Positions 2,683 through 30,653 of a stretch of 30,653 nucleotides of DNA are shown here, in pieces. The DNA is from a virus. The notes beneath the pieces were generated by a model, which was not told the origin of the DNA, did no database searches, and saw nothing but the letters and a program-made list of their open reading frames with translations. The position numbers and the translations under genes are program-made. Position 1 is the first letter of the stretch; each line of letters starts with the position of its first letter. Location of the stretch: positions 1 to 30,653 of IMG/VR virus record IMGVR_UViG_3300031566_000243; one strand, given 5' to 3'.

Positions 2683-3438
2683 CTACGGCCAGACATAATT
2701 GTTGAAGTCAATCTCGTCATAAATGGTAGAGGTATGGACGGCGCCGATGGGCACTTCAGCAAGTTCCGTTCCGTCGTCGCTTTGCGTCCAGGTGCCATCC
2801 ACCCAGGTGCCAGTCTGCTCCTCTGTTGTCCACCACTCGTATTGCCAGCCGTCGGCCGAATAAGCAAACTCCCACTCCACCCGCCACAGGTCATTTGTGT
2901 CCCGTGCGATTTGCGCCCCAAGACAGAGCCACTTACCCGAAGCCCCACCTTTGAAGGTTGTGGAGTTGACCTTGCCAACGAGCGAGAGTACGATGCTCGC
3001 ATCCCAACTGTCCCAGTCCCGCCACGTGGTGAGACGCAGCGTAACCTGCGGGACAAGGACGTCTACACCTTCGGCGCGCATCCCAATCCCATTGTCCAGT
3101 AAATCCGTTATCCTCGTCTGACTTCGCGTGCCGAAACTCCACTGCTCGATAACCTCCGTTGCAACGTCGTCCGCGGGTGCATACTTCCACGCGATGTTCG
3201 GCAAATCCGTATACGTGACTGCCACCTCGAAATTGTCTTTGTCCCTGGGCCGGGCCTGAAGATTGGTTACTGTGATGCTGGGCACGTTGGGATACGCATC
3301 GCCAAGAGAGGGCAAGGTGGCATCGGCCAGCGCCGTGATTCCGTCAGTCGCGGCCACCAGGAACACTCGCTCCGCCTCGTACCCGTTCGCCGTGCGCGTC
3401 AGCCGCCGGGATTCATATCGTTCGCCTGGTACTGCCAT
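2683..3438 (-). CDS. Distal tail/baseplate-region protein, 251 aa (unrecognised family)
   Basis: ATG at 3438 lies 3 nt after the tape-measure stop. The protein is beta-rich and acidic, with many Trp residues in the second half (WRDWDSW, WEFAYSADGWQYEWW, GTWVDGTW). No membrane segment or signal peptide is visible. Its position directly after the tape measure is where siphoviruses place the distal tail protein or tail-tip hub, so a structural tail role is inferred. I do not recognise a family signature. Confidence 0.68.
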   Translation of the reverse strand: MAVPGERYESRRLTRTANGYEAERVFLVAATDGITALADATLPSLGDAYPNVPSITVTNLQARPRDKDNFEVAVTYTDLPNIAWKYAPADDVATEVIEQWSFGTRSQTRITDLLDNGIGMRAEGVDVLVPQVTLRLTTWRDWDSWDASIVLSLVGKVNSTTFKGGASGKWLCLGAQIARDTNDLWRVEWEFAYSADGWQYEWWTTEEQTGTWVDGTWTQSDDGTELAEVPIGAVHTSTIYDEIDFNNYVWP

Positions 3439-8107: not shown

Positions 8108-8285
8108 CCTTGCTCCCCATTCGTCGGTTGTTCGCATCCTCCCCGATGACCTCACACAGCCCAGTAGTTACCCACGCGCGCGCGGCACTGACCGACACAA
8201 AATCTTCTTCGCCGCGCACCCGACGGCACGCTCTTGCGTCCAAGGGCACAGTCGTATTCCGAAGCCAGCGCACCAAGACGTTCAC
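8100..8285 (-). CDS. Small head/neck-associated protein, 61 aa
   Basis: GTG at 8285 overlaps the glycosyltransferase stop as GTGA. The sequence MNVLVRWLRNTTVPLDARAC, then GEEDFVSVSAARAWVTTGLCEVI, resembles the very small phage proteins (opening with a KxxRNTTV-like strand and ending in an 'hxxhxxxGxAE' helix) that often sit next to connector genes. Function is unknown. A similar 'LHPGQLVDVLNRHEARTLLR' element forms the N-terminus of the large glycosyltransferase upstream, so the fold may be a shared small module. Confidence 0.62.
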   Translation of the reverse strand: MNVLVRWLRNTTVPLDARACRRVRGEEDFVSVSAARAWVTTGLCEVIGEDANNRRMGSKDD

Positions 8286-9046
8286 AGGTCTATCCTCGTC
8301 GTGTGGTCTAATAAGTTCAGCAAGAGAGGCTCAGAGATTGGCTCTCTCTTCTCCCAGTCGCGCGGGCGCCCTGGCGCCTCAGTCCCCGCATGGTCATGGT
8401 GGATATGGAAGTGCCGATAGTCCTGGACGACTGTATATCCCATCTCTTCCGCGCGGCTAACGAAGTCATTATCGACGTGCAGGTTTTGGTGCACCATTGC
8501 CCAGCCACCGATGTCCTGGTAGGCATAGCGAGAGAACCCGCAGAAGTCCCCCGCGGCCGCCGTGAAGTCGCGCATGACCGTCGCTATCAGCGACGGGTCA
8601 AGAACATAACCCCGCGGTATCTCATGCCTTATCGCTCGCACAACCCGTCCGTCGGCGATGTCCGTAAGCACCTGGTCAAAGCCCGCCGCGGGAAATATGT
8701 TGTCCGGGTTGCAGACGATGAGAGTATCGCTTCCCGCAAGGCGGATGCCTATCTCCTTTGCGACATATTCGTAGAAGGGAAATGGCTTCCCGGCGTGGTC
8801 AGCGTCCAACTCCGCTTGGAGTCCCGCGTCGACGGTCACAATCGAGACGGGCTGCCCCTCCAGGAACGTTCGCATTGACGGACGGTCTGCAGGCGGGTTC
8901 CATTCGACGATGATGATTTCGGACTTGACATCAAGAGCAACGATGCTTTCGACCGTGGCCTGCAAGCGCGCCATTGCGAAGTTTTCGACGCCTTCGAGTT
9001 CGCCGCCGTATCCGTCGTTTCGCGCTGCCATAATCCAACTAATCAT
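8282..9046 (-). CDS. GT-A type glycosyltransferase
   Basis: 254 aa. ATG 9046 overlaps the methyltransferase stop as ATGA. The N-terminus SWIMAARNDGYGG, then ATVESIVALDVKSEIIIVEW, is the nucleotide-sugar-binding start of GT2-like enzymes. DTLIVCNPDNIFPAAGFD holds a DxD-like acidic pair (NPDN). HVDNDFVSRAEEMGYTVV is a typical acceptor or catalytic segment. It is the last of four sugar genes between the capsid gene and the connector genes. The substrate is unknown; it probably glycosylates the virion or a precursor linked with the cassette. Confidence 0.75.
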   Translation of the reverse strand: MISWIMAARNDGYGGELEGVENFAMARLQATVESIVALDVKSEIIIVEWNPPADRPSMRTFLEGQPVSIVTVDAGLQAELDADHAGKPFPFYEYVAKEIGIRLAGSDTLIVCNPDNIFPAAGFDQVLTDIADGRVVRAIRHEIPRGYVLDPSLIATVMRDFTAAAGDFCGFSRYAYQDIGGWAMVHQNLHVDNDFVSRAEEMGYTVVQDYRHFHIHHDHAGTEAPGRPRDWEKREPISEPLLLNLLDHTTRIDL

Positions 9047-9696
9047 CGCTTCGTCCCCCAGAGCATTTGATACTTGCCTTCGAGTTCATGCCAGCGCGCG
9101 ACCGTGATGCCAGCCTGCTCGCACATCCGCGGGAATGAGTCATCCGTCCAACCCCACAAGTGCGTGGAGTCGTGCTTCTTACCGTCGTCCAAGAGGGGCA
9201 CGCTGAACAATACCTGGGTGCCTCCGGGGATACGCTCCAGGAACCCCGCCGGGTCAAGAAGATGCTCAAGCGTCTCGGTCATAATCAGGAGTTCCGGCCA
9301 GGTGATGTCTTCGTCCAGGGCGGTTGTGAAATCAAGCACCTTGGCATCGATGCCGCGACTCATTGCCATGTCAACATTCAGGGGCTGAAGGTCGTACCCC
9401 CACAGAACCGGCCACTCAAGCGGTGTCGCCGCTATCGTGTTGTAGCCCTCCACCATCAAGCAGTTCGCTAGCTGGTCGGAGAGCAGGAGCAAAAGGCCCC
9501 CTGTTCCGCACCCGAAATCAGCAGCCGTTAGAAGTCGCTCGAAGCGCATCAGATACGCCGCATAGCCGGCCAGCAAGTGTAGGCGCAATGCGGACGGACG
9601 TTGATACAAATGGTCTGCGGCCTCGCGGTTGAGGTAGAACTCCGGGCTGTACACATCCCGCGGTTTGTCCGGGTCGAAGAATCGATTGATGCTCAT
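9043..9696 (-). CDS. SAM-dependent methyltransferase (class I)
   Basis: 217 aa from ATG 9696, which overlaps the epimerase stop (ATGA) and has GAGGGAG upstream. Residues 60-67 (DFGCGTGG) form the SAM-binding glycine loop. LLIMTETLEHLLDPAGFLER is the motif IV/post-motif segment of small-molecule methyltransferases. GTQVLFSVPLLDDG follows. Enzymes of this shape methylate sugars or other small substrates. In context, methylation of the glycan made by the flanking genes is the simplest reading. DNA methylation is less likely because no NPPF/DPPY motif is seen. Confidence 0.82.
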   Translation of the reverse strand: MSINRFFDPDKPRDVYSPEFYLNREAADHLYQRPSALRLHLLAGYAAYLMRFERLLTAADFGCGTGGLLLLLSDQLANCLMVEGYNTIAATPLEWPVLWGYDLQPLNVDMAMSRGIDAKVLDFTTALDEDITWPELLIMTETLEHLLDPAGFLERIPGGTQVLFSVPLLDDGKKHDSTHLWGWTDDSFPRMCEQAGITVARWHELEGKYQMLWGTKR

Positions 9697-10643
9697 AGCA
9701 CTCCCTCTCTCCACATGTGCATACCCTCATCGAGTGAGATGTTTGCGCGTACCCTGCAGGCATGAGTCTTGGCCATGTCTGCCACCCGCCAATAGACTCC
9801 CTCGGGCTTGCTCTTGTTGTGGCATATCGCTGCCTGCTTATCGCAAGCGGCCAGAGCGCGCGATGCGAAATCGATGAACTTGACGGGTATGCCAGTCCCG
9901 AGGTTGTACGTGCCCCCGCCATGTAACTGGTGTAACTCAAACGCCATGCGGCAGATATCGTTTATGTGAATCCAGTCCCGGCATTGTGTCCCAGAACCCC
10001 AGACCACGACCGGGTCTTCTCCGTCGACGACTCGCTGCATAATCGCCGGGAAGGGGTAGGCAAGTCCTTGGTCTGTACCGTAGCCACTGAACGGCCGGAA
10101 GATTGTGACCTGGGTATCAGCGAGGAACGAGCAGAGATATTCGCCGGTGACTTTTGCCCAGCCGTAGGTCATGTCGGGCCGGCCTATCCAAGCCGACTTC
10201 TCAAGCGCTATCATGTCCTCGCTCAACAGGCGCTTGGTGCGACGTTTCTGCCAACACGTTGGGTAGGCCGCCGAGGACGAGAAGTACATGAGTTCCTTAG
10301 CCATCCCACCATGCACAGCAGCTATGACCGCCTGGTCTATCGCCAAGTTCTCAGCAACGTCGATAGCGCGGTTCTCGATTTCCAATCTGCCCCCGACGCG
10401 AGCCGCCAGATGAATGCACAAGTCGAATCGCTGTTTCCGCTTCAGGAACGCCCGCACGTCCATTTCCCAGAACCGGTCAAACTGGGTGTACAGTTCCTGC
10501 TTATCCCACTCCTCGCGGCCCTCGGAGAAATCGTCCACGCCAACGAGATGAACGTTTTCGAGATTCCGGCGTATCCACCGCGTGAACGCGCGGCCCACGA
10601 AACCCGCTGCTCCTGTGATTAGGATTAGTCTGTCAGGACTCAT
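9693..10643 (-). CDS. NAD-dependent sugar epimerase/dehydratase (SDR family)
   Basis: 316 aa from ATG 10643, which overlaps the preceding stop by 11 nt. GAAGFVG (residues 11-17) is the Rossmann GxxGxxG motif. A SSS triad segment (122-124) and Tyr160-xxx-Lys164 (YGWAK) complete the extended-SDR active site. DLCIHLAARVGG and WIHINDICRM also fit the family. The pattern is close to GDP-fucose synthase and UDP-hexose epimerases. It should supply a modified nucleotide sugar to the adjacent transferases. The exact sugar cannot be told from sequence reading alone. Confidence 0.9.
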   Translation of the reverse strand: MSPDRLILITGAAGFVGRAFTRWIRRNLENVHLVGVDDFSEGREEWDKQELYTQFDRFWEMDVRAFLKRKQRFDLCIHLAARVGGRLEIENRAIDVAENLAIDQAVIAAVHGGMAKELMYFSSSAAYPTCWQKRRTKRLLSEDMIALEKSAWIGRPDMTYGWAKVTGEYLCSFLADTQVTIFRPFSGYGTDQGLAYPFPAIMQRVVDGEDPVVVWGSGTQCRDWIHINDICRMAFELHQLHGGGTYNLGTGIPVKFIDFASRALAACDKQAAICHNKSKPEGVYWRVADMAKTHACRVRANISLDEGMHMWREGVL

Positions 10644-12702
10644 CGTGTATCGCCTTATAGGCCCGCGAGACAATATCAGGGACAGTCCAGTCGACGCCCC
10701 GGACTATACCGTCGCCGCAATCTCCTATCTGCCCCTTCCACCGCAGCCACGCGTCCGCCTGCTGCACGTGCTTGTCACGCTGCTTGTAATAGCCCTTCTT
10801 GAGCGTCATAAACTCGCGTGGCATACAGTGCCCCATGTGATACAGCACGCAGGTTGTACCTAGCGCCTCTACGGTCTTGCGATTGTTGTGCGACGCCCAT
10901 GCAATCTTTTTCGAGGCTGCGGCATACGGCACGATGTGCGAGTGCCAATAGTGACTTGCCCGCCACGGCAGGATGCGGACATGCGGCCAGACGGCACCGT
11001 AAGGTTTGACTTCTTCGCCCCACCGATACAAGCCGCTTGATACAATGTGATGTCCGAGGTCGTGCCAGAAGGTGACAGCGAGCGGACAGCCGCCGTCGAT
11101 AGTACCCTTGCCAAGTGCGGCCACGTAGTTCTCGAAGCCCGTCCAGATTTCATCCGAGTCCAGAATCATCAGGTAGTTGCCGGTGATTCGCTCCACCGCT
11201 GCGTCTCGCATTGCCTGCCGACAGGCTTTGCCGTCTGTACCAGGCCAGACATCCTTAGCGATTATCTGTATCTTGCCGTCCGGGTCAGGGAAGTTACGAA
11301 GCACCTCCAGGGTGTTGTCCTCAGGCCACGGCCATGCTTGCTCTCGGCCATACGAGATGATGATTTCGTGGACGTGTGGGTATACCGCTTCGAGAGCGAA
11401 GGGGACAACCTTAGCGCAGGCGTAGGCGTTCATCACTGCCGAGATGCGAGGCTTGGAAGAACAGAAATAGGGTAGGTCATCAATGGCCTCGCGCTGCGCT
11501 GCCATGCCCAAGGTCTTGAGTATCGCCCCTTGCTTGCGCTTGCTCACCACGTGTTTCTTGGGTGCGCTTAACACACTATGTGCCGCTATTGTGTACGCCT
11601 GCTTATTTCCGCGCTCAACGTAGGTTAGCGCATCACCGTATTCCTGCCTCAGTACCGGCAGGTCGTAGACAATGACGGGAGTGCGGACGGCCAAGGCCTC
11701 GGCTGGCACCATGCCAAATCCCTCGAAGTCGCTAGGCGCAAGTACCGCCACCGCCTCGCGCATCAGAGCGAACTTCACGCGGTCGCTTACATTCGGGAAA
11801 TGGTGCACCTTGTGCAGCGGGCCGGGTATGGCGTTTGGGCCTCCATTAAGTCGGCCTACTTTCACCCAGTCCATTTGCTTGCCGTAGGCAAACACGACAT
11901 CGCAGGCCAATTGGTCGTTCTTGTATCCGCTCCCCCGGCCACAGCTCACGATAAACTTACGACCTTGCAGACCCTTCGGCACCTTGCCCCCTTCGAGGGC
12001 AGTCTCGTTGACCGCAGGGTTTATCACTTCGAGTGGGGCGTCCTTATCGTCAAGCCACAAACGGAGAAACGCTGCGGACTCGTCAGACGTAGCGAGCATC
12101 AAATCCGCCGCTCGAAAGACGTCCTTGTAGTCGTCGTGATATGCAATCAGTTTCGCAACATCCGGCCTGAACTGCGTGAACCAATTCGGCGTCTCGAAGT
12201 TCCAGGCTACAAAGGGAACTCCATGCTCCCTTGCGTATTGCAGTCCTTGCCGTGCCACCGCGTTCTTGCCGTCCACGACGACAAGGTCGAAATCGGGGAT
12301 GATGCTCGGGGAGTCCTTCGAGGTATCCCACAGCACCAGGTTGTCCAATGCCGGGTAGTCATTCCACCAAGGCGGCGTTGAGTCGGTCGCAACCGTTACG
12401 TGATTGCCAAGTTGAGCGAGGTTCCAAGCGAACTGGGTTAGGTGCACTCGGCCGCCAGAGTAGAACTTCTTCATCGGGAACCAGCAGAGCAGCCGCCGGC
12501 GGCCCCCCGGAATCACGGGGGATATAAGTAGCCGTTTGTCCGCCTGGCTTGTGCTCAACTCCTTGGGGATTATGACTCCCTTGCGTAGGAGTGTCCGGGC
12601 CTCGTGTCGGTTGAGGACGTCAACGAGTTGGCCGGGGTGGAGAACTACAGCCTTCCCCATCTGGTCGTGAAACTCGAACTCAGTTAGTACTCTGAACCAC
12701 AT
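10633..12702 (-). CDS. Bifunctional glycosyltransferase (GT4-like + GT2-like)
   Basis: 689 aa with three parts. Residues 1-48 form a small module (VVLHPGQLVDVLNRHEARTL) like that of small phage neck proteins. Residues about 68-385 form a GT-B fold with GGRVHLTQFAWNLAQLG and the EX7E motif E327-E335 (DFEGFGMVPAEAL), typical of GT4. Residues about 418-689 form a GT-A domain starting RISAVMNAYACAKVVPFALE, with DSDE at 515-518 as the metal site. The gene begins 77 nt after the capsid stop, behind a GC-rich hairpin. Two transferase domains in one chain imply sequential sugar additions. The substrate is unknown; virion decoration is the likely purpose. Confidence 0.88.
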   Translation of the reverse strand: MWFRVLTEFEFHDQMGKAVVLHPGQLVDVLNRHEARTLLRKGVIIPKELSTSQADKRLLISPVIPGGRRRLLCWFPMKKFYSGGRVHLTQFAWNLAQLGNHVTVATDSTPPWWNDYPALDNLVLWDTSKDSPSIIPDFDLVVVDGKNAVARQGLQYAREHGVPFVAWNFETPNWFTQFRPDVAKLIAYHDDYKDVFRAADLMLATSDESAAFLRLWLDDKDAPLEVINPAVNETALEGGKVPKGLQGRKFIVSCGRGSGYKNDQLACDVVFAYGKQMDWVKVGRLNGGPNAIPGPLHKVHHFPNVSDRVKFALMREAVAVLAPSDFEGFGMVPAEALAVRTPVIVYDLPVLRQEYGDALTYVERGNKQAYTIAAHSVLSAPKKHVVSKRKQGAILKTLGMAAQREAIDDLPYFCSSKPRISAVMNAYACAKVVPFALEAVYPHVHEIIISYGREQAWPWPEDNTLEVLRNFPDPDGKIQIIAKDVWPGTDGKACRQAMRDAAVERITGNYLMILDSDEIWTGFENYVAALGKGTIDGGCPLAVTFWHDLGHHIVSSGLYRWGEEVKPYGAVWPHVRILPWRASHYWHSHIVPYAAASKKIAWASHNNRKTVEALGTTCVLYHMGHCMPREFMTLKKGYYKQRDKHVQQADAWLRWKGQIGDCGDGIVRGVDWTVPDIVSRAYKAIHDES

Positions 12703-17001: not shown

Positions 17002-18210
17002 TTACCACTCCCAGACCGTCACTTCTGGCCGCTCTAAATGCATAACCGCATACCGCAGAGCGTCCATGGCGTGGTCGTATTCCTTCACGGGTTCGTCCTT
17101 ATTCTTTTTCCACTGGTACGTCTGCAGTTCGCGGAGCGTCTCTTCGCACGTCGGCGATACGGTGAGTCGCGGTAGGCCATCGCCGGCACAGGCAAGGCGG
17201 GTCTGGACGGCCTGAATACCCTCAAAGACGGCGTTGTTGGCCGCGACGGCATCGATGCCCGCTTGTCGCAATGCTTGGATTAACCCGGCGGCGGAGGGGT
17301 CAACAACCGCTACCTCGGCCCCCGTCTCAGTTGCCATGGCCTTGACAGTGCGCACGAACTCATCCTGCAACACTTGGGCACGGTAGAACTCTTTGAACAC
17401 ATGCCCCCGGCCGTCCGAGTCCAGGCCCAGCGCCACAATGACCGCTGGGTTCGTGTAGCCTTCATCGACGCCCAAGACAACGCGCTTCCAAGGCCCGGGC
17501 TTTTCAATCACGTGCTTGTCACGGTCGAAGGAATCGTAGACGAGACCCTCGAAGCCGACCCAGTTGCCCATCACGTAGCGGTCATATGAGGTGCCCGTGA
17601 AGGACTTCAGCAGGGCAATGTAGTCGTCTGGTAGGTAGGGGTTCTCCAGGCTGTTGGTCTGGATGAGTTGACGCTCGGCGTGCGGGCGGTCGATGAAGCG
17701 CTCGAAGAGAAAGTGGGTAGGCGGCCCGGGGTTGGTAGCCGTAAAGATTTGCCTGACCGCTGCGGCGGTGTTTCGGATACGGCCCAGGAGCATCGTGTAT
17801 TCGTCCTCGTCCAGTTCAATCCCCTCATCAATGCCCACAGCCCCGAAGTTCAGCGAGCCGCGCTTCAGGGGTGAGTCGAAGCCGAAGTAGAATATCTCAC
17901 CGCCTCCCTGCATCTGGATAGTGTGCTCGCTCTTGTTGTGCAGGTAGGTTCCCTCGGGGAGCACCGGAGGCAAGTCGCCTTCTTCTTGCAGGAGAGTTTT
18001 GAGGGTTGTCGCTCTCAAGTCGGCATAGGTTTTCCGGCATAGTCCGACGCGGTTGCCGGGGACGACCGCATGGGTCAGGAGTTTGTGGCACAGGCCCCGG
18101 GTCTTGCCTGCGCCGAAGGCCCCGGAATACAAGACCTCCCGCACGTCCGAGCGGACGAAGTCCCACTGCTTCGGGAGCAACTCAACGTCAACTTCCGTCG
18201 CTGTCGTCAT
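17002..18210 (-). CDS. terL: Terminase large subunit
   Basis: 402 aa. Walker A is SGAFGAGKT (29-37), Walker B is AVGIDEG with D128/E129, and the coupling motif is TATNPG (157-162). The C-terminal RNase H-like nuclease has acidic residues at D249 (LGVDEGYTNP), D304 (VVDPSA) and D379/D383 (YDHAMDALRY). ATG 18210 overlaps the small-subunit end by 23 nt. The protein translocates DNA into the portal and cuts concatemers. Both ATPase and nuclease centres look intact. Class assignment (headful or cos) cannot be read from motifs alone, although the apparent circular permutation favours headful packaging. Confidence 0.96.
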   Translation of the reverse strand: MTTATEVDVELLPKQWDFVRSDVREVLYSGAFGAGKTRGLCHKLLTHAVVPGNRVGLCRKTYADLRATTLKTLLQEEGDLPPVLPEGTYLHNKSEHTIQMQGGGEIFYFGFDSPLKRGSLNFGAVGIDEGIELDEDEYTMLLGRIRNTAAAVRQIFTATNPGPPTHFLFERFIDRPHAERQLIQTNSLENPYLPDDYIALLKSFTGTSYDRYVMGNWVGFEGLVYDSFDRDKHVIEKPGPWKRVVLGVDEGYTNPAVIVALGLDSDGRGHVFKEFYRAQVLQDEFVRTVKAMATETGAEVAVVDPSAAGLIQALRQAGIDAVAANNAVFEGIQAVQTRLACAGDGLPRLTVSPTCEETLRELQTYQWKKNKDEPVKEYDHAMDALRYAVMHLERPEVTVWEW

Positions 18211-18562
18211 GCCTCACCTTGAAGTTGATGACTAGGGGGGACTCGCTGACTCCCGCGTGCTCGATGCGCTCCGTTTCTTGCCAGTGGTATTGACACTTCA
18301 GGGTGAACAGGGCTGGTGTGGGGTTCTTGCACCGTCGCATTTCGTTGACAAGGGCTTGCTCAGTTTCGGCCCGGGCTGTTTTAATGCGCTGTGAGAACTT
18401 TTCTTCCTCTGGTGTCTCTGGATTTGCAAGCCACGTGAACCCGCTTTTCTGGGAAATCCCAGCGCCATCGAAGGCCAGTCGGAGCGAACCCCCAGCCAGA
18501 ACGTGGGCTACCACGTAGTCAGTGATTGTTTCGGAGCACTTGCGCGGACGCCCTATCGCCAT
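18188..18562 (-). CDS. Terminase small subunit
   Basis: 124 aa from ATG 18562, chosen because AGGAGG stands 7 nt upstream. Starts MAIGRPRKCSETITDYVVAH, then an HTH-like region with SLRLAFDGAGISQKSGFTWL, and a helical second half (FSQRIKTARAETEQALVNEM) for oligomerisation. This is the phiBT1/terS-like arrangement, a DNA-binding N-terminus that recognises the packaging site. It lies directly upstream of, and overlaps, the large subunit. The DNA 5' of this gene would be the first place to look for a pac site. Confidence 0.88.
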   Translation of the reverse strand: MAIGRPRKCSETITDYVVAHVLAGGSLRLAFDGAGISQKSGFTWLANPETPEEEKFSQRIKTARAETEQALVNEMRRCKNPTPALFTLKCQYHWQETERIEHAGVSESPLVINFKVRHDDSDGS

Positions 18563-18639
18563 ATACAATCCTCCTGGGTTAATATTGGCGTGTACAAACA
18601 GGGCGCGCAAGGCAAAAAACGGGATGCTGCGAAAGTCTG

Positions 18640-18665
18640 TACGACTTAGTACGACTTAGTACGAT
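18640..18665 (-). repeat. 10-bp direct repeats before the terminase genes (operator or pac candidate)
   Basis: TACGACTTAG occurs twice head to tail (18640-18649, 18650-18659), followed by a partial third copy TACGAT. The period is one helical turn. The repeat contains the stop codon of the HTH gene and lies 78-100 bp upstream of the small terminase. It may bind the HTH protein just encoded or the small terminase. Confidence 0.5.
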
Positions 18666-21624: not shown

Positions 21625-22251
21625 TCAAAGTCTGCCGCCGTCTCCGCCGCCTTCTCCGCCGCCAACTCCGCCGCCAACGCCGCCTCCCACGCCGCCGCCG
21701 CCTTCCGCCCCCTCGCACAGCGCCCGTTGCTCGTCCGTCAAGTCCTTGCGCTCCTCGGCAATCCGAGCGCAGCCGTCGGCGTCTGCCCCCGCGATACACG
21801 CTGACACCTGCTCATTCGTCAAGTCCTCGCGGTTAATGGCAATCCGGGCGCGGCCATACGTGTCAGTCCCCGCGATGCACGCTGAGATTTGCTCGTCCGT
21901 CAAGTCCTTGCACACGCTAACAATCCAGTGGCGGCCATTCGCGTCTGTCCCCGCGATGCACGCTGAGATTTGCTCGTCCGTCAAGTCCTTGCACCCCGAA
22001 GCAATCCGCTCGCAGCCGTAGGCGTTCGTCCCCGCGATACAAGCATCGACTTGCGCGGGGGTCAGTCCTGGATAGTGCGTGACGAGCCAACCGAGGAAGC
22101 CCCTCAGTTCGTCGTCCGCAGCCAGCCGCTCAATTAGTTCGTCTGCTAGGGCGACTCCGTCGGGGTACGTTTCGCCAAACCATTCCATCGCCTCGCATTC
22201 CTCTATCGCTCCAACGCTCAACAAGGTTTTGCGTGTGATTGTTTCGGTCAT
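21625..22251 (-). CDS. Four-repeat (27 aa) protein with glycine-rich tail
   Basis: 208 aa from ATG 22251, which overlaps the DUF5131 stop as ATGA. Residues 1-65 are acidic and helical (AIEECEAMEWFGETYPDGVA). Residues 68-175 are four tandem 27-residue units with consensus xSACIAGTDAxGxxRIAxxxKDLTDEQ. The last 26 residues are almost only glycine, broken by single V, E and D. Each repeat ends in an N-capped helix start (LTDEQ), so an alpha-solenoid for protein binding is likely. A bacterial or phage function is not known to me. Confidence 0.8.
   Translation of the reverse strand: MTETITRKTLLSVGAIEECEAMEWFGETYPDGVALADELIERLAADDELRGFLGWLVTHYPGLTPAQVDACIAGTNAYGCERIASGCKDLTDEQISACIAGTDANGRHWIVSVCKDLTDEQISACIAGTDTYGRARIAINREDLTNEQVSACIAGADADGCARIAEERKDLTDEQRALCEGAEGGGGVGGGVGGGVGGGEGGGDGGRL
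21727..22050 (-). repeat. Four tandem 81-bp repeats
   Basis: 324 bp, exactly four units of 81 bp (27 codons), starting at 22050, 21969, 21888 and 21807 on the minus strand. All keep A-C-I/L-A-G and (K/E)DLT(D/N)EQ. The two central units share CKDLTDEQISACIAGTD at DNA level, showing recent duplication. Confidence 0.9.
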
Positions 22252-23018
22252 GTCACTATTCCTTCCGGGAACTCTTGGATGAGCGGTTCCCCCCACACCT
22301 CGGCCAGATTATTCTTGAGGAACACCGGAATGCCCGCTTGTCGGGCAGCGGCCACAAGGTGACGCAGCCACACCCGTTCCACCGGATACTGTTTCGCCTT
22401 CGGGCCGGTCATGGCACCCACGATGAGCCAGGCCAGGCGCGAATGCGAACGGGCTATACTATCGAGAGCGGCGCCCGTCGGCCAGTGATACCGCGGTTCC
22501 AACGAACCATAGATGTTTGTGACCGTCTCGTCGTTTTTGGTGTAGGCCGTAATTTCCATTTCCCGAGAAAGAACTTCACTTAAGCTCGGGCCGGAAACTC
22601 CGAGCCAGGCATTGTCGGGGAAAAACAATGCCGTTGAATGGCCATATCCAAAGGGGTTCTTGGTCAAAAAGAGGTAGGTATGCTGCGGTGTCTGCTCACA
22701 GACCGCAAGCACGTCTTCTTGCCACGGCTCGGGAACCCAATCACCCCAGAGGTCGCCCATGCTACTGACGAAGATACGTGCGGGCTTCTTGCGATAGAGG
22801 GGCGAGTGTTTGCGGTCGAATTGAGCATTGTGGAAAATCGGCCTGAACGGGTCGCCTTCGGCAGGATAGCCGCTCCGGCCTTGGAGCCGCCTCGCGAACC
22901 TTTCTGCATAACAGCCGGGACAGCGATTTGGGTTCTCCACTGTTCCCTCCGGCCCCCAGCAGCCAGTCACTGGATTCCACGTGTGCGTTGCCCACTCAAT
23001 TCCGGTACGGTTCATCAT
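22248..23018 (-). CDS. DUF5131 (phage Gp37/Gp68) family protein
   Basis: 256 aa from ATG 23018 (ATG 23015 is equally possible; GGGAGAGG precedes). The TGIEWATHTWNPVTGC start, the spaced cysteines C20, C33 and C36 (CPGCYAERFA), RIFVSSMGDLWGDWV, HTYLFLTKNP, then WLIVGAMTG and a C-terminal GIPVFLKNNL mark the DUF5131 family. Its three cysteines and barrel-like pattern resemble radical-SAM enzymes, though the biochemical role in phages is not established. A longer upstream in-frame extension exists but lacks a good ribosome site and overlaps the zinc-finger gene. Confidence 0.92.
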   Translation of the reverse strand: MMNRTGIEWATHTWNPVTGCWGPEGTVENPNRCPGCYAERFARRLQGRSGYPAEGDPFRPIFHNAQFDRKHSPLYRKKPARIFVSSMGDLWGDWVPEPWQEDVLAVCEQTPQHTYLFLTKNPFGYGHSTALFFPDNAWLGVSGPSLSEVLSREMEITAYTKNDETVTNIYGSLEPRYHWPTGAALDSIARSHSRLAWLIVGAMTGPKAKQYPVERVWLRHLVAAARQAGIPVFLKNNLAEVWGEPLIQEFPEGIVT

Positions 23019-23736: not shown

Positions 23737-23855
23737 GAGCAATCCCCCCATTCTGAAAGCGTGTGACGGCTCGTCCCCCCTGCGAGATGCGCTCCGTGAA
23801 CGCCGCAATAGGGCCTTCCGAGCCTTTCTCGCCTCTTCCACACCTTGTCACTCAC
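23733..23855 (-). CDS. Small basic protein, 40 aa, coupled at both ends
   Basis: GTG 23855 overlaps the previous stop by GTGA, and its own stop overlaps the RuvC start by GTGA. Both junctions share the bases TTGCTCGTGA with a G-run just before. Sequence begins MSDKVWKRRERLGRPYCGVH and ends WGDCS. Basic, no known family. Two exact 4-nt couplings make a real gene likely despite the size. It could also be a nearly non-coding spacer kept open for translational coupling. Confidence 0.62.
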   Translation of the reverse strand: MSDKVWKRRERLGRPYCGVHGAHLAGGTSRHTLSEWGDCS

Positions 23856-24196
23856 GAGCAACCCCCTAACCCGCCACAGACACACTGAGCGGCCTCTGTC
23901 AACGTCTCCGATTGCTTGTCGCCTTCGACGCTTTCGATTTCCCGCTTGGCTTGAGCCAAGGCCCAGTCGGCCGGGACGTATCGCCGGCGGACAACGGAGG
24001 CGATTGCCCACGCCGCCGGGTTGGCTTTGTGGGGAGCGACCAGGAGCAGAGCGTGAATGCGTTGGCGCTCGTCGCGCCCCGGCTCACAACCCTGGATGCA
24101 GCGGGCTAGGTAGGAGACGGCGTTGTACCTTTCCGTTGCCGTGTCCGGCCAGTCTCTCAAGAGCCGAAATGCATTACGGTTGACTTCAGTCTCCAT
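23852..24196 (-). CDS. Hypothetical protein downstream of the origin, 114 aa
   Basis: ATG 24196 has AAGGAGG 5 nt upstream. Helical and mixed in charge: RNAFRLLRDWPDTATERYNA, VSYLARCIQGCEPG, then HALLLVAPHKANPAAWAIAS and VVRRRYVPADWALAQAKREI. The end is Gly/Cys-rich (CVCGGLGGCS). It is the first gene after the proposed replication origin, so a replication accessory role is plausible but unproven. No motif for helicase loader or primase is seen. Confidence 0.68.
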   Translation of the reverse strand: METEVNRNAFRLLRDWPDTATERYNAVSYLARCIQGCEPGRDERQRIHALLLVAPHKANPAAWAIASVVRRRYVPADWALAQAKREIESVEGDKQSETLTEAAQCVCGGLGGCS

Positions 24197-24262
24197 GCGA
24201 GCCTCCTTAAGACCAGAGAAGGTTAATAGCCTAGCCGTTAATCCGTTTGGCTTTTGTATCTG

Positions 24263-24294
24263 TTTATTGTCCTCTTGTCTTCTTGTCTTCTTGT
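24263..24294. repeat. 8-bp tandem repeats in the AT-rich part of the origin region
   Basis: On the plus strand TTTATTGT, CCTCTTGT, CTTCTTGT and CTTCTTGT stand head to tail. The stretch is pyrimidine-rich on one strand and weakly paired, a plausible duplex-unwinding element. A stem around TACG-TTTT-CGTA lies next to it at 24307-24318. Confidence 0.6.
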
Positions 24295-24338
24295 ATTAAG
24301 CGGAAATACGTTTTCGTACTTCCTGCACGACGTGACTT

Positions 24339-24803
24339 TCATGTGACATCCCCGTGACCGCGCTGCCGTCTTTTCCGTAACGTGTTTCCCTGCCTACGGT
24401 TAGCGTTCCTTCGCAACCTGCGTGACGTGAGCGTGACGCGGGGCGTGACGGTCACGGAAATGGACGAGTTATTCACAGCCTTTTGAGACGTTTTTGAGAC
24501 GTTTTTGAGTGTCTTTTGAGGGCCTTCATCTCCATTCGTTCGTTTCCCCCGGGCGAAGTAGACGCCGCAAACCCTCTTTGAGTGGAGTTCGGCGACGGCT
24601 TTTTCGACAACACGTGCCTCGCTCCTGGTCAGCCTGGCGAGTTCAGCGAACGTTCCCGACACCTTGTATTCGCCGGTCTGCCACATCACACACAGGCATT
24701 CAATCCAGAACCCTCGGGTCGCCAGGTCGCACCGTCCGAGTTCCGCGTCGGCCGCCCATGCTTTCGGCCAGAACTTGACCCAGTGAAACCTATCGGTTAC
24801 GAT
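24339..24803 (-). CDS. Replication-initiator-like protein (DUF1376-type N-terminus), non-canonical start
   Basis: The frame runs from just after a TGA upstream of the annealing-gene stop down to TGA 24339. Conserved sequence begins before any ATG/GTG: codons from 24791 encode DRFHWVKFWPKAW..., then CDLATRGFWIECLCVMWQTG and EYKVSGTFAELARLTRSEAR. This is the winged-helix N-terminus of phage replisome-organiser-like proteins. GAGGGGG lies 8 nt before an ATC at 24803, the best start I can see (MVTDRFHW if read as Met; about 154 aa). GTG 24689 would cut the domain in half. The basic C-terminus (RRLRRNANRRQGNTLRKRRQ) is encoded by DNA carrying iterons. It probably binds the origin and recruits host replication proteins. 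Confidence 0.72.
   Translation of the reverse strand: MVTDRFHWVKFWPKAWAADAELGRCDLATRGFWIECLCVMWQTGEYKVSGTFAELARLTRSEARVVEKAVAELHSKRVCGVYFARGKRTNGDEGPQKTLKNVSKTSQKAVNNSSISVTVTPRVTLTSRRLRRNANRRQGNTLRKRRQRGHGDVT
24421..24456. repeat. CGTGAC repeats and palindrome
   Basis: CGTGAC at 24421, 24432 and 24444 (spacings 11 and 12), the last forming CGTGAC-G-GTCACG with 24451-24456. Further copies lie at 24331 and 24353. Helical phasing and inverted symmetry suggest binding of a dimeric protein. Confidence 0.62.
24469..24477 (+). promoter_or_regulatory. DnaA-box match
   Basis: TTATTCACA fits the relaxed DnaA consensus TTATNCACA exactly. It stands 3 bp from the first 11-bp iteron and 12 bp from the CGTGAC palindrome. 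A single box could be chance, but its location between two repeat clusters raises the likelihood. Confidence 0.55.
24481..24524. repeat. Four 11-bp iterons inside the replication gene
   Basis: TTTTGAGACGT (24481), TTTTGAGACGT (24492), TTTTGAGTGTC (24503), TTTTGAGGGCC (24514). All keep TTTTGAG, with an exact 11-bp period. Because 11 is not a multiple of three, the conserved repeat cannot be explained by a repeated peptide; it indicates selection on DNA. Confidence 0.85.
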
Positions 24804-29813: not shown

Positions 29814-29995
29814 TCCTCACCCTCCATTCTGTTCTCCGGCTGGCCACCGTAGGTCACGTTCCCGTCGGCGTCAAGCCGCATATAGTTCTTGCACTGCCCG
29901 CAGAGAATCATCTTGTCCTCACCCTCGCGCGGGATGTCGGTTGGGTATGTCCAGGCCCGACACCAAGGACATTGCACTTGCTGGTAGTCACTCAT
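29810..29995 (-). CDS. Zinc-ribbon protein, 61 aa
   Basis: ATG 29995 overlaps the fibre stop as TAATG. Two CxxC pairs (CPWC at residues 9-12 and CGQC at 32-35) form a zinc ribbon. Acidic C-terminus (GQPENRMEGEE). It sits between fibre and holin-like gene. Possibly a structural or assembly protein; the family is not recognised. Confidence 0.74.
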   Translation of the reverse strand: MSDYQQVQCPWCRAWTYPTDIPREGEDKMILCGQCKNYMRLDADGNVTYGGQPENRMEGEE

Positions 29996-30653
29996 TATAC
30001 CACCTCCCCGCTCAGGGTTATACTGTCCGGGGCGTCACTGTTCGGCGTGGCTGTGTGCTCGTCCACATTGGTAGTCTCGATACCACCTGGGTCATTGTCG
30101 GTAGCGATGCGGACAACGAAGCGATATTCCGTCTCGTCAACCAGCGCGGCGCTCGTCCAGGAATAGCGGTCGATGTCGGTGGGATTGTTCATTGCCACCG
30201 TGCCCACGACCGACGTATAGTCTACCGTCCCGGTGCCGTTGTCATAGTAAACGCGAGCCTCTTTTGCGACGTAGCCGCTATGTGGAATATAGGTGAACCC
30301 GACCGTCACCTTACCACCGCCAGCGGAGTCCGCGGTTACGAACTGCGGATTGTTGGGAGCGGCCTGCTCCGCTCCGCTTACGGTGTGTATTGTCACCGCC
30401 TGGTCGATATTGCCCTCGACATTGCCGTCGGTGTCGCGCGCCCTGACCAAGAAGATGTAGGTTCCGGTCAAGCCGGTCATGTCCTTCTGCCAGGTCACGG
30501 TCGGGTGGTTGACAGTGGCAACGACGCTATCGGCGCTGAGCAACAACTTGCTCTCGCCGTCGCTTGAGTAGACCCGATAGTCCTGAATGTCCGCGGATGT
30601 GCTGGCTGTCCAGGTCAGCGTCAGGGTCACATCAACCATGCTCACCGCGAGGC
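29995..30653 (-). CDS. C-terminal part of the fibre: fibronectin type III domains (5' end outside window)
   Basis: The frame is open from the window end to a TAA at 29995. VDVTLTLTWTASTSADIQDY, then RVYSSDGESKLLL and GTYIFLVRARDTDGN, is a clear FN3 domain. A second (NPQFVTADSAGGGKVTVGFT ... TEYRFVVRIATDND) follows. The only in-window start, GTG 30645, has no ribosome site. If the ends are joined, the frame continues from the fibre gene at base 1 (junction codon AGC), giving GDADTSLAVSMVDVTLTLTW as one run. FN3 modules are common in phage tail proteins and bind surface sugars weakly. Confidence 0.84.
   Translation of the reverse strand, partial: LAVSMVDVTLTLTWTASTSADIQDYRVYSSDGESKLLLSADSVVATVNHPTVTWQKDMTGLTGTYIFLVRARDTDGNVEGNIDQAVTIHTVSGAEQAAPNNPQFVTADSAGGGKVTVGFTYIPHSGYVAKEARVYYDNGTGTVDYTSVVGTVAMNNPTDIDRYSWTSAALVDETEYRFVVRIATDNDPGGIETTNVDEHTATPNSDAPDSITLSGEVV

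Follow-up and report, generated by a model that had tools for sequence, protein, structure and literature searches.

The location of a replication origin inside the gene of its own initiator is already known. The rep genes of TP901-1 and Tuc2009 contain internal regions rich in direct repeats, to which Rep binds and which function as the ori (PMC8965321). The annotation of Tuc2009 orf16 itself reads "contains origin of replication", and this gene harbors CAACCA at locus positions 1438, 1449, 1460, and 1471, i.e., with a spacing of 11 bp, followed by AT-rich repeats; r1t orf11 harbors GGAACC at 3211, 3222, 3233, and 3244 (again 11 bp), also followed by AT-rich repeats. In lambda, the iterons start 348 nt into gene O and precede a purine-biased AT-rich tract. 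A further case is that of SPP1, whose oriL is located inside gene 38 (PMC6316719).

The window analysed here is the whole IMG/VR virus record IMGVR_UViG_3300031566_000243 (30,653 nt, positions 1-30,653). A sequence-only reading of it had proposed an iteron-type origin within an initiator gene, and this is still the best explanation of the locus, in view of the protein family, the repeats harbored by the relatives, a segment of the unwinding type, and the Tuc2009 precedent. Taken together, sequence, fold model, and analogy make it very probable that the site is the theta-type replication origin of the phage, embedded in the gene of its own winged-helix initiator as in lambda and Tuc2009; the same layout appears to recur in many viruses that are only distantly related. 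The recognised genes of the window are nearly all on the minus strand and the GC skew is below zero almost everywhere; since nearly all the genes are on one strand, the skew is uninformative for placing the origin in this record. The Rfam scan of the record found nothing. Minus-strand ORFs, both resembling structural repeat proteins, run off the two ends (1-1036 and 29995-30653), and it may be that the record represents an almost complete, circularly permuted genome, opened within one gene. Elsewhere in the window, a 10-bp tandem repeat (GTACGACTTA, 2.6 copies, 18639-18664) is located just upstream of a small-terminase-like gene (18188-18610, minus strand) and represents a candidate packaging site; the gene at 21625-22296, without a PHROG match, contains 81-bp (27-aa) tandem repeats (DLTDEQISACIAGTD...) ahead of a glycine-rich tail; lastly, ORFs that on reading the sequence are glycosyltransferase-like, methyltransferase-like, and NAD-epimerase-like form a run (8282-12702) placed between the capsid and the tail genes of this 30-kb phage.

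The putative origin is associated with a winged-helix replication-initiator-like gene on the minus strand (24339-24803), coding for 154 aa. The ORF listing shows this gene from an internal GTG only, and the homology extends from the very first part of the frame; no ATG, GTG, or TTG fits ahead of the domain, and the likely start codon, as read from the sequence, is an ATC at 24803, which overlaps the stop codon of the preceding gene (ATCGTAA). The gene ends within the second block of repeats described below, without the C-terminal domain of most relatives, and no such domain follows even in frame, because the frame closes again 26 codons after the stop. The ORF at 23855-24196 was considered as a split-off C-terminal domain of the initiator and discarded, having no support and no match among all the fetched ORFs. 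Direct matches of the 154-aa protein are weak: the PHROG match was a primosomal protein (phrog_9327, E 0.009), phage_O_Nterm (NCBIfam TIGR01610, phage replication protein O) scored 13.6 bits (E 0.071), below the curated cut-off of 45.5 bits, and no Pfam family, Phage_rep_org_N (PF09681) included, matched at E 0.01, while tblastn retrieved Pseudanabaena phage Pam1_56 (E 1e-5). The AlphaFold2 model (mean pLDDT 84) is a winged helix in which a disordered loop (approximately aa 85-121) separates the two wing strands and is followed by a long basic helix. In the PDB, Foldseek retrieved nothing at E 0.001; when its matches were re-aligned with VIA-align, the winged-helix N-domain fold of the plasmid initiators 4pt7 (Z 8.1), 4pql (Z 8.0), 4pta, and 5kbj (both Z 6.9), whose titles name an initiator or a Rep-DNA complex, was recovered, with 4pt7 and 4pql in the top three. 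However, sequence identity with these four is 4-11%, and their scores are not clearly above those of unrelated winged helices, some of which score nearly as high. The initiator-like nature previously assigned to the gene is nonetheless borne out by its homology to a winged-helix initiator family and by the fold model, and on this basis the 154-aa protein is a relative of winged-helix replication initiators. Among the ORFs scanned in the record, no other replication initiator, and no phage helicase or loader, was recognised.

Inside this minus-strand frame, TTTTGAG (CTCAAAA on the minus strand) starts at 24481, 24492, 24503, and 24514, forming an array (24481-24520) that encodes the disordered wing loop at approximately aa 95-108. 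The four copies and their exact 11-bp period in coding DNA are as originally described. The copies pass through all three frames (1, 0, 2, and 1), and the period-11 score of the gene was matched by none of 200 codon shuffles, in agreement with the statement that such a period cannot come from a repeated peptide. Among 2000 synonymous-codon shuffles of the gene, a single one contained a 7-mer four times, and no phased CTCAAAA run appeared in 120 strands when the dinucleotides of the whole record were shuffled. Ten unrelated viral contigs also harbor CTCAAAA-N4 arrays with the same 11-bp period, which are mostly intergenic and in some cases stand just ahead of genes. As possible origins these were rejected, being located between genes or in unrelated frames, so that CTCAAAA alone marks no origin; the occurrence of such arrays outside initiator genes counts against the origin reading. 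The array of the record may consist of extra or altered iterons, or may be the site of another protein.

Two additional blocks, each formed by three GTCAC on the minus strand, are found downstream in the direction of transcription. Block 1 (24422-24449) includes copies at 24445-24449, 24433-24437, and 24422-24426, spaced by 12 and 11 bp, and encodes the second wing strand; block 2 (24332-24358), with copies at 24354-24358, 24343-24347, and 24332-24336 (11 and 11 bp), lies at and just beyond the 3' end of the gene. An inverted repeat, GTGAC-C-GTCAC (24445-24455), stands at the head of block 1. No phased GTCAC run appeared in 120 strands obtained by dinucleotide shuffling of the whole record. 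The CGTGAC repeats of the sequence-only reading are thus real and more numerous than it described, since they form two phased triplets of GTCAC, and what it called a perfect palindrome is a 6+6 inverted repeat about one base, CGTGAC-G-GTCACG. Its suggestion that the iterons be sought in related genomes had a mixed outcome, in that GTCAC recurs, whereas the TTTTGAG (CTCAAAA) array is not common to the relatives; the conserved iteron, judged from these comparisons, is GTCAC and not TTTTGAG.

Directly 3' of block 2, the DNA has a low stability. The nearest-neighbour stability minimum of the whole record for 60, 80, and 100 bp falls at about 24208-24307, and the least stable 60 bp (24239-24298), with 67% AT and purine up to 80% on the minus strand, represent a putative duplex-unwinding element. 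This element contains a purine-rich 8-bp unit, TTGTCTTC, which reads GAAGACAA on the minus strand and is present in 3.5 tandem copies (24267-24294), so that the AT-richer 8-bp repeats already reported are confirmed and fall inside the least stable 60, 80, and 100 bp. The sequence features of an intragenic origin of the lambda/Tuc2009 kind are found together at this locus, i.e., a gene coding for a replication initiator (through family homology and fold model, the direct PHROG and NCBIfam matches being weak), at least three phased direct repeats in the initiator coding sequence, and an AT-rich, easily melted segment adjoining the repeats (24239-24298). A DnaA-box match had also been counted as part of the origin. 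The single DnaA-box-like site, TTATTCACA (24469-24477, plus strand), does exist, but it is within chance expectation: exact TTATNCACA was found once, with about one expected by chance in 30 kb (both strands, base counting), and ten times against 11.2 expected when one mismatch was allowed. A DnaA box is present within 200 nt in 3 of 49 arrays. The single site is probably not part of the origin, and on these two counts DnaA boxes were discarded as a general origin part; a DnaA-dependent (oriC-like) origin would have a cluster of DnaA boxes, and the record has one exact box.

Relatives of the gene were picked by protein first and not by repeats. The 154-aa protein alone, used as a query, retrieved no relatives from viral or genome contigs, and the neighbouring phrog_3657 gene retrieved no near relatives from viral contigs; relatives were reached only with profiles A2 and A4. 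The profile search yielded 432 relatives in viral contigs, and a narrower profile yielded 61 (best E 2e-15) plus 8 in bacterial genome bins, including Planctomycetota and Acidobacteria; the best relatives (E 1e-14 to 1e-15) share 38-45% identity over the domain. Of the 61 unique genes in this narrow set, 41 (67%) harbor a pentamer at least three times at 10-12 bp, versus 20 of 364 neighbouring ORFs (5%), the corresponding values being 15% versus 5% for chains at 13-15 bp and 5% versus 4% for chains at 16-18 bp. The commonest phased motifs in this set are GTAAC and GTCAC. At least four phased GTNAC are present in 21 genes, where the copies of one gene are usually all of one type (at least 80% uniform in 14 of the 21) and form two blocks, at around nt 235-290 and nt 335-440. 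Two-block GTCAC/GTAAC arrays are harbored, as an example, by L256, L267, L269, L304, L306, L288, and L246, and the two blocks are often located as in the record, that is, in the wing and in the linker; in L267, L269, and L243, the first block falls where the wing region is extended or carries an insertion, like that of the record's gene. L243/L163, which are 43-45% identical to the 154-aa protein over the domain, carry four inverted GTGAC at the place of the four CTCAAAA of the record, as well as a GTGAC-T-GTCAC junction, i.e., the same GTGAC-N-GTCAC junction as that at 24445-24455. By homology over the domain and a two-block GTNAC array, which define the winged-helix initiator family of profiles A4/A5 (L163, L241, L256, L304, and others), the locus, with its six phased GTCAC, belongs to this family.

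The repeats persist in distant relatives. Ranked by local instability, the segment following the array is among the top 10% in 25 of 44 pattern-selected relatives and in 8 of 19 protein-selected ones, and in many relatives a second short tandem repeat follows the array. In the wider set (63 genes), other repeats exist at the DNA level in the linker, namely GATAA with a spacing of 12 bp and CCAGAAG with one of 7 bp. In some A2 relatives (L041, L061, L162, and others), the linker CCAGAAG has an exact 7-bp period and, read in three frames, encodes QKPEARSQKPEA; chains of CCAGA spaced by 7-9 bp are present in 30 of the 63 genes and adjoin 12-bp GATAA/GTTAAC repeats.

At least 120 viral contigs contain four GTCAC spaced by 11/12 bp, compared with 23 for the same motif at 13/14 bp, taken as a control. 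The GTCAC arrays fall in ORFs of at least 150 aa in 77 of 122 cases, 51 of these 77 standing 180-620 nt into an ORF of the same strand, and an ORF matching the winged-helix profiles accompanies 23 of 122 arrays versus 0 of 23 controls. PHROG replication families were matched by 14 of 20 array ORFs (sampled evenly); over 61 array ORFs, the leading PHROG classes were replication initiation, DnaD-like loader, and replisome organizer, and Phage_rep_org_N was the commonest Pfam match (11/61). GTAAC arrays were also detected in at least 120 contigs, only 35 of 125 being located in ORFs of at least 150 aa, and those within initiator-like ORFs mostly have the opposite orientation, with GTTAC on the coding strand. 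Because most of these arrays are outside long ORFs and the initiator-like ones are mostly reversed, the motif count alone is not specific for GTAAC. As an example of the reversed type, the initiator-like ORFs of L310, L316, L319, L341, L372, and others (e.g., MSWIKLETHIFDKLEIF) harbor, 144-390 nt after the ORF start, 11-bp arrays of GTTAC on their coding strand.

With Rep2009/orf16 of Tuc2009 and orf11 of r1t (lactococcal P335-type phages), the likeness consists in an origin within the initiator gene, known from experiment in Tuc2009, and in four iterons with an exact 11-bp period that stand after the N-terminal domain and before AT-rich purine-biased repeats. However, the iterons are CAACCA or GGAACC in those phages and GTCAC/CTCAAAA in the record, no array is seen there inside the wing, and their proteins keep the C-terminal domain, r1t having in addition a neighbouring DnaC-like loader. 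The lambda ori in gene O (and the Stx-phage origins) is also located in the middle of the initiator gene, with four iterons followed by an AT-rich purine-biased segment (PMC7466680). The lambda iterons contain CTCAAAA, like the array of the record, a likeness that may be due to chance, but they are about 18-20 bp long, have a dyad (TCCCTC...GAGGGA), and are spaced by 20-24 bp, whereas the record has an 11-bp period and CTCAAAA without a dyad; the 18-20-bp iterons with dyad symmetry of the lambda ori subtype are thus not those of this locus. SPP1 oriL is similar by description, consisting of direct repeats and an AT-rich unwinding element within the gene of the origin-binding protein (PMC6316719); it differs, again by description, in that both a loader and a helicase are encoded by SPP1 itself, which also possesses oriR as a second origin.

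On the model of these systems, copies of the initiator would bind the GTCAC iterons, possibly in a cooperative way, the iterons being one helical turn apart and therefore on one face of the DNA. Binding would take place in two blocks about 90 bp apart, and the assembled complex might strain and open the adjoining purine-rich, AT-rich repeats (24239-24298), where the replicative helicase could then be loaded. Loading would probably be accomplished by host factors, since no phage counterpart was recognised among the ORFs scanned.

Phased sites are often used by cooperative DNA-binding proteins, and some of the CTCAAAA arrays of other contigs are just ahead of genes, as would be expected if the arrays were operators for transcriptional repression or activation by the initiator or by a different phage protein, with the origin located elsewhere. 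The GTCAC arrays, however, lie within coding DNA, 200-600 nt downstream of the initiator-gene starts and not at promoters, and are followed by the low-stability segment; moreover, autoregulation and origin function are compatible, so that operators standing in place of an origin appear unlikely. A different objection comes from the gene itself which, without a standard start codon and without a C-terminal domain, could be decaying, the site being a mere remnant in a phage that relies on another replication system. The ATC as the sole plausible start, the stop within block 2, and the renewed closure of the frame 26 codons on would fit such a decay; nevertheless, the winged-helix frame is intact, as are the unwinding element and the six GTCAC sites with their phasing, and the scanned ORFs revealed no other initiator, which leaves little probability for a decayed origin.

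The 11-bp period is also that of R1 parC, whose iterons are bound by ParR, and a partition (centromere) site might be thought of. It appears very improbable here, since the genes scanned with PHROGs and Pfam, several of them without any match, included no recognisable par gene, and the arrays track initiator genes and not par genes. The linkers of this initiator family are low in complexity, which might suggest that the repeats are a by-product of the linker peptide or of codon bias; yet the 11-bp period moves through all three frames, the repeats exceed those of codon shuffles, and VTxxSRxxHxxVT, the common peptide of the relatives, is just what GTCAC repeats spell when read in three frames, so that such a by-product is extremely improbable. 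An intragenic replication origin is thus the preferred reading.

As far as the partial open-licence literature shows, what is new is the 11-bp GTNAC iteron common to very different initiators and the location of the first iteron block in the wing codons themselves; no description of a GTCAC phage iteron was found in open-licence full texts. From the sequences compared, it is conceivable, even though we regard it as possible rather than probable, that the GTNAC iteron is shared by very different winged-helix initiators and that, in the subfamily of the record, block 1 is made up of codons for the DNA-contacting wing, whereby a site that changed from GTCAC to GTAAC would also turn a wing His into Asn. 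If this is true, the binding site would evolve together with the binding domain, as a single DNA segment. The overlap between iterons and wing codons is an unusual constraint, since the same segment, read in all three frames, would be a binding site and would also encode part of the binding domain. To our knowledge, most phages known only from metagenomes have no mapped origin, and the skew shows no origin when nearly all the genes are on one strand. An 11-bp GTNAC code in initiator genes, adjoining a local stability minimum, would give a direct way to place origins, which, if the proposal is true, would become readable from thousands of uncultured phage genomes.
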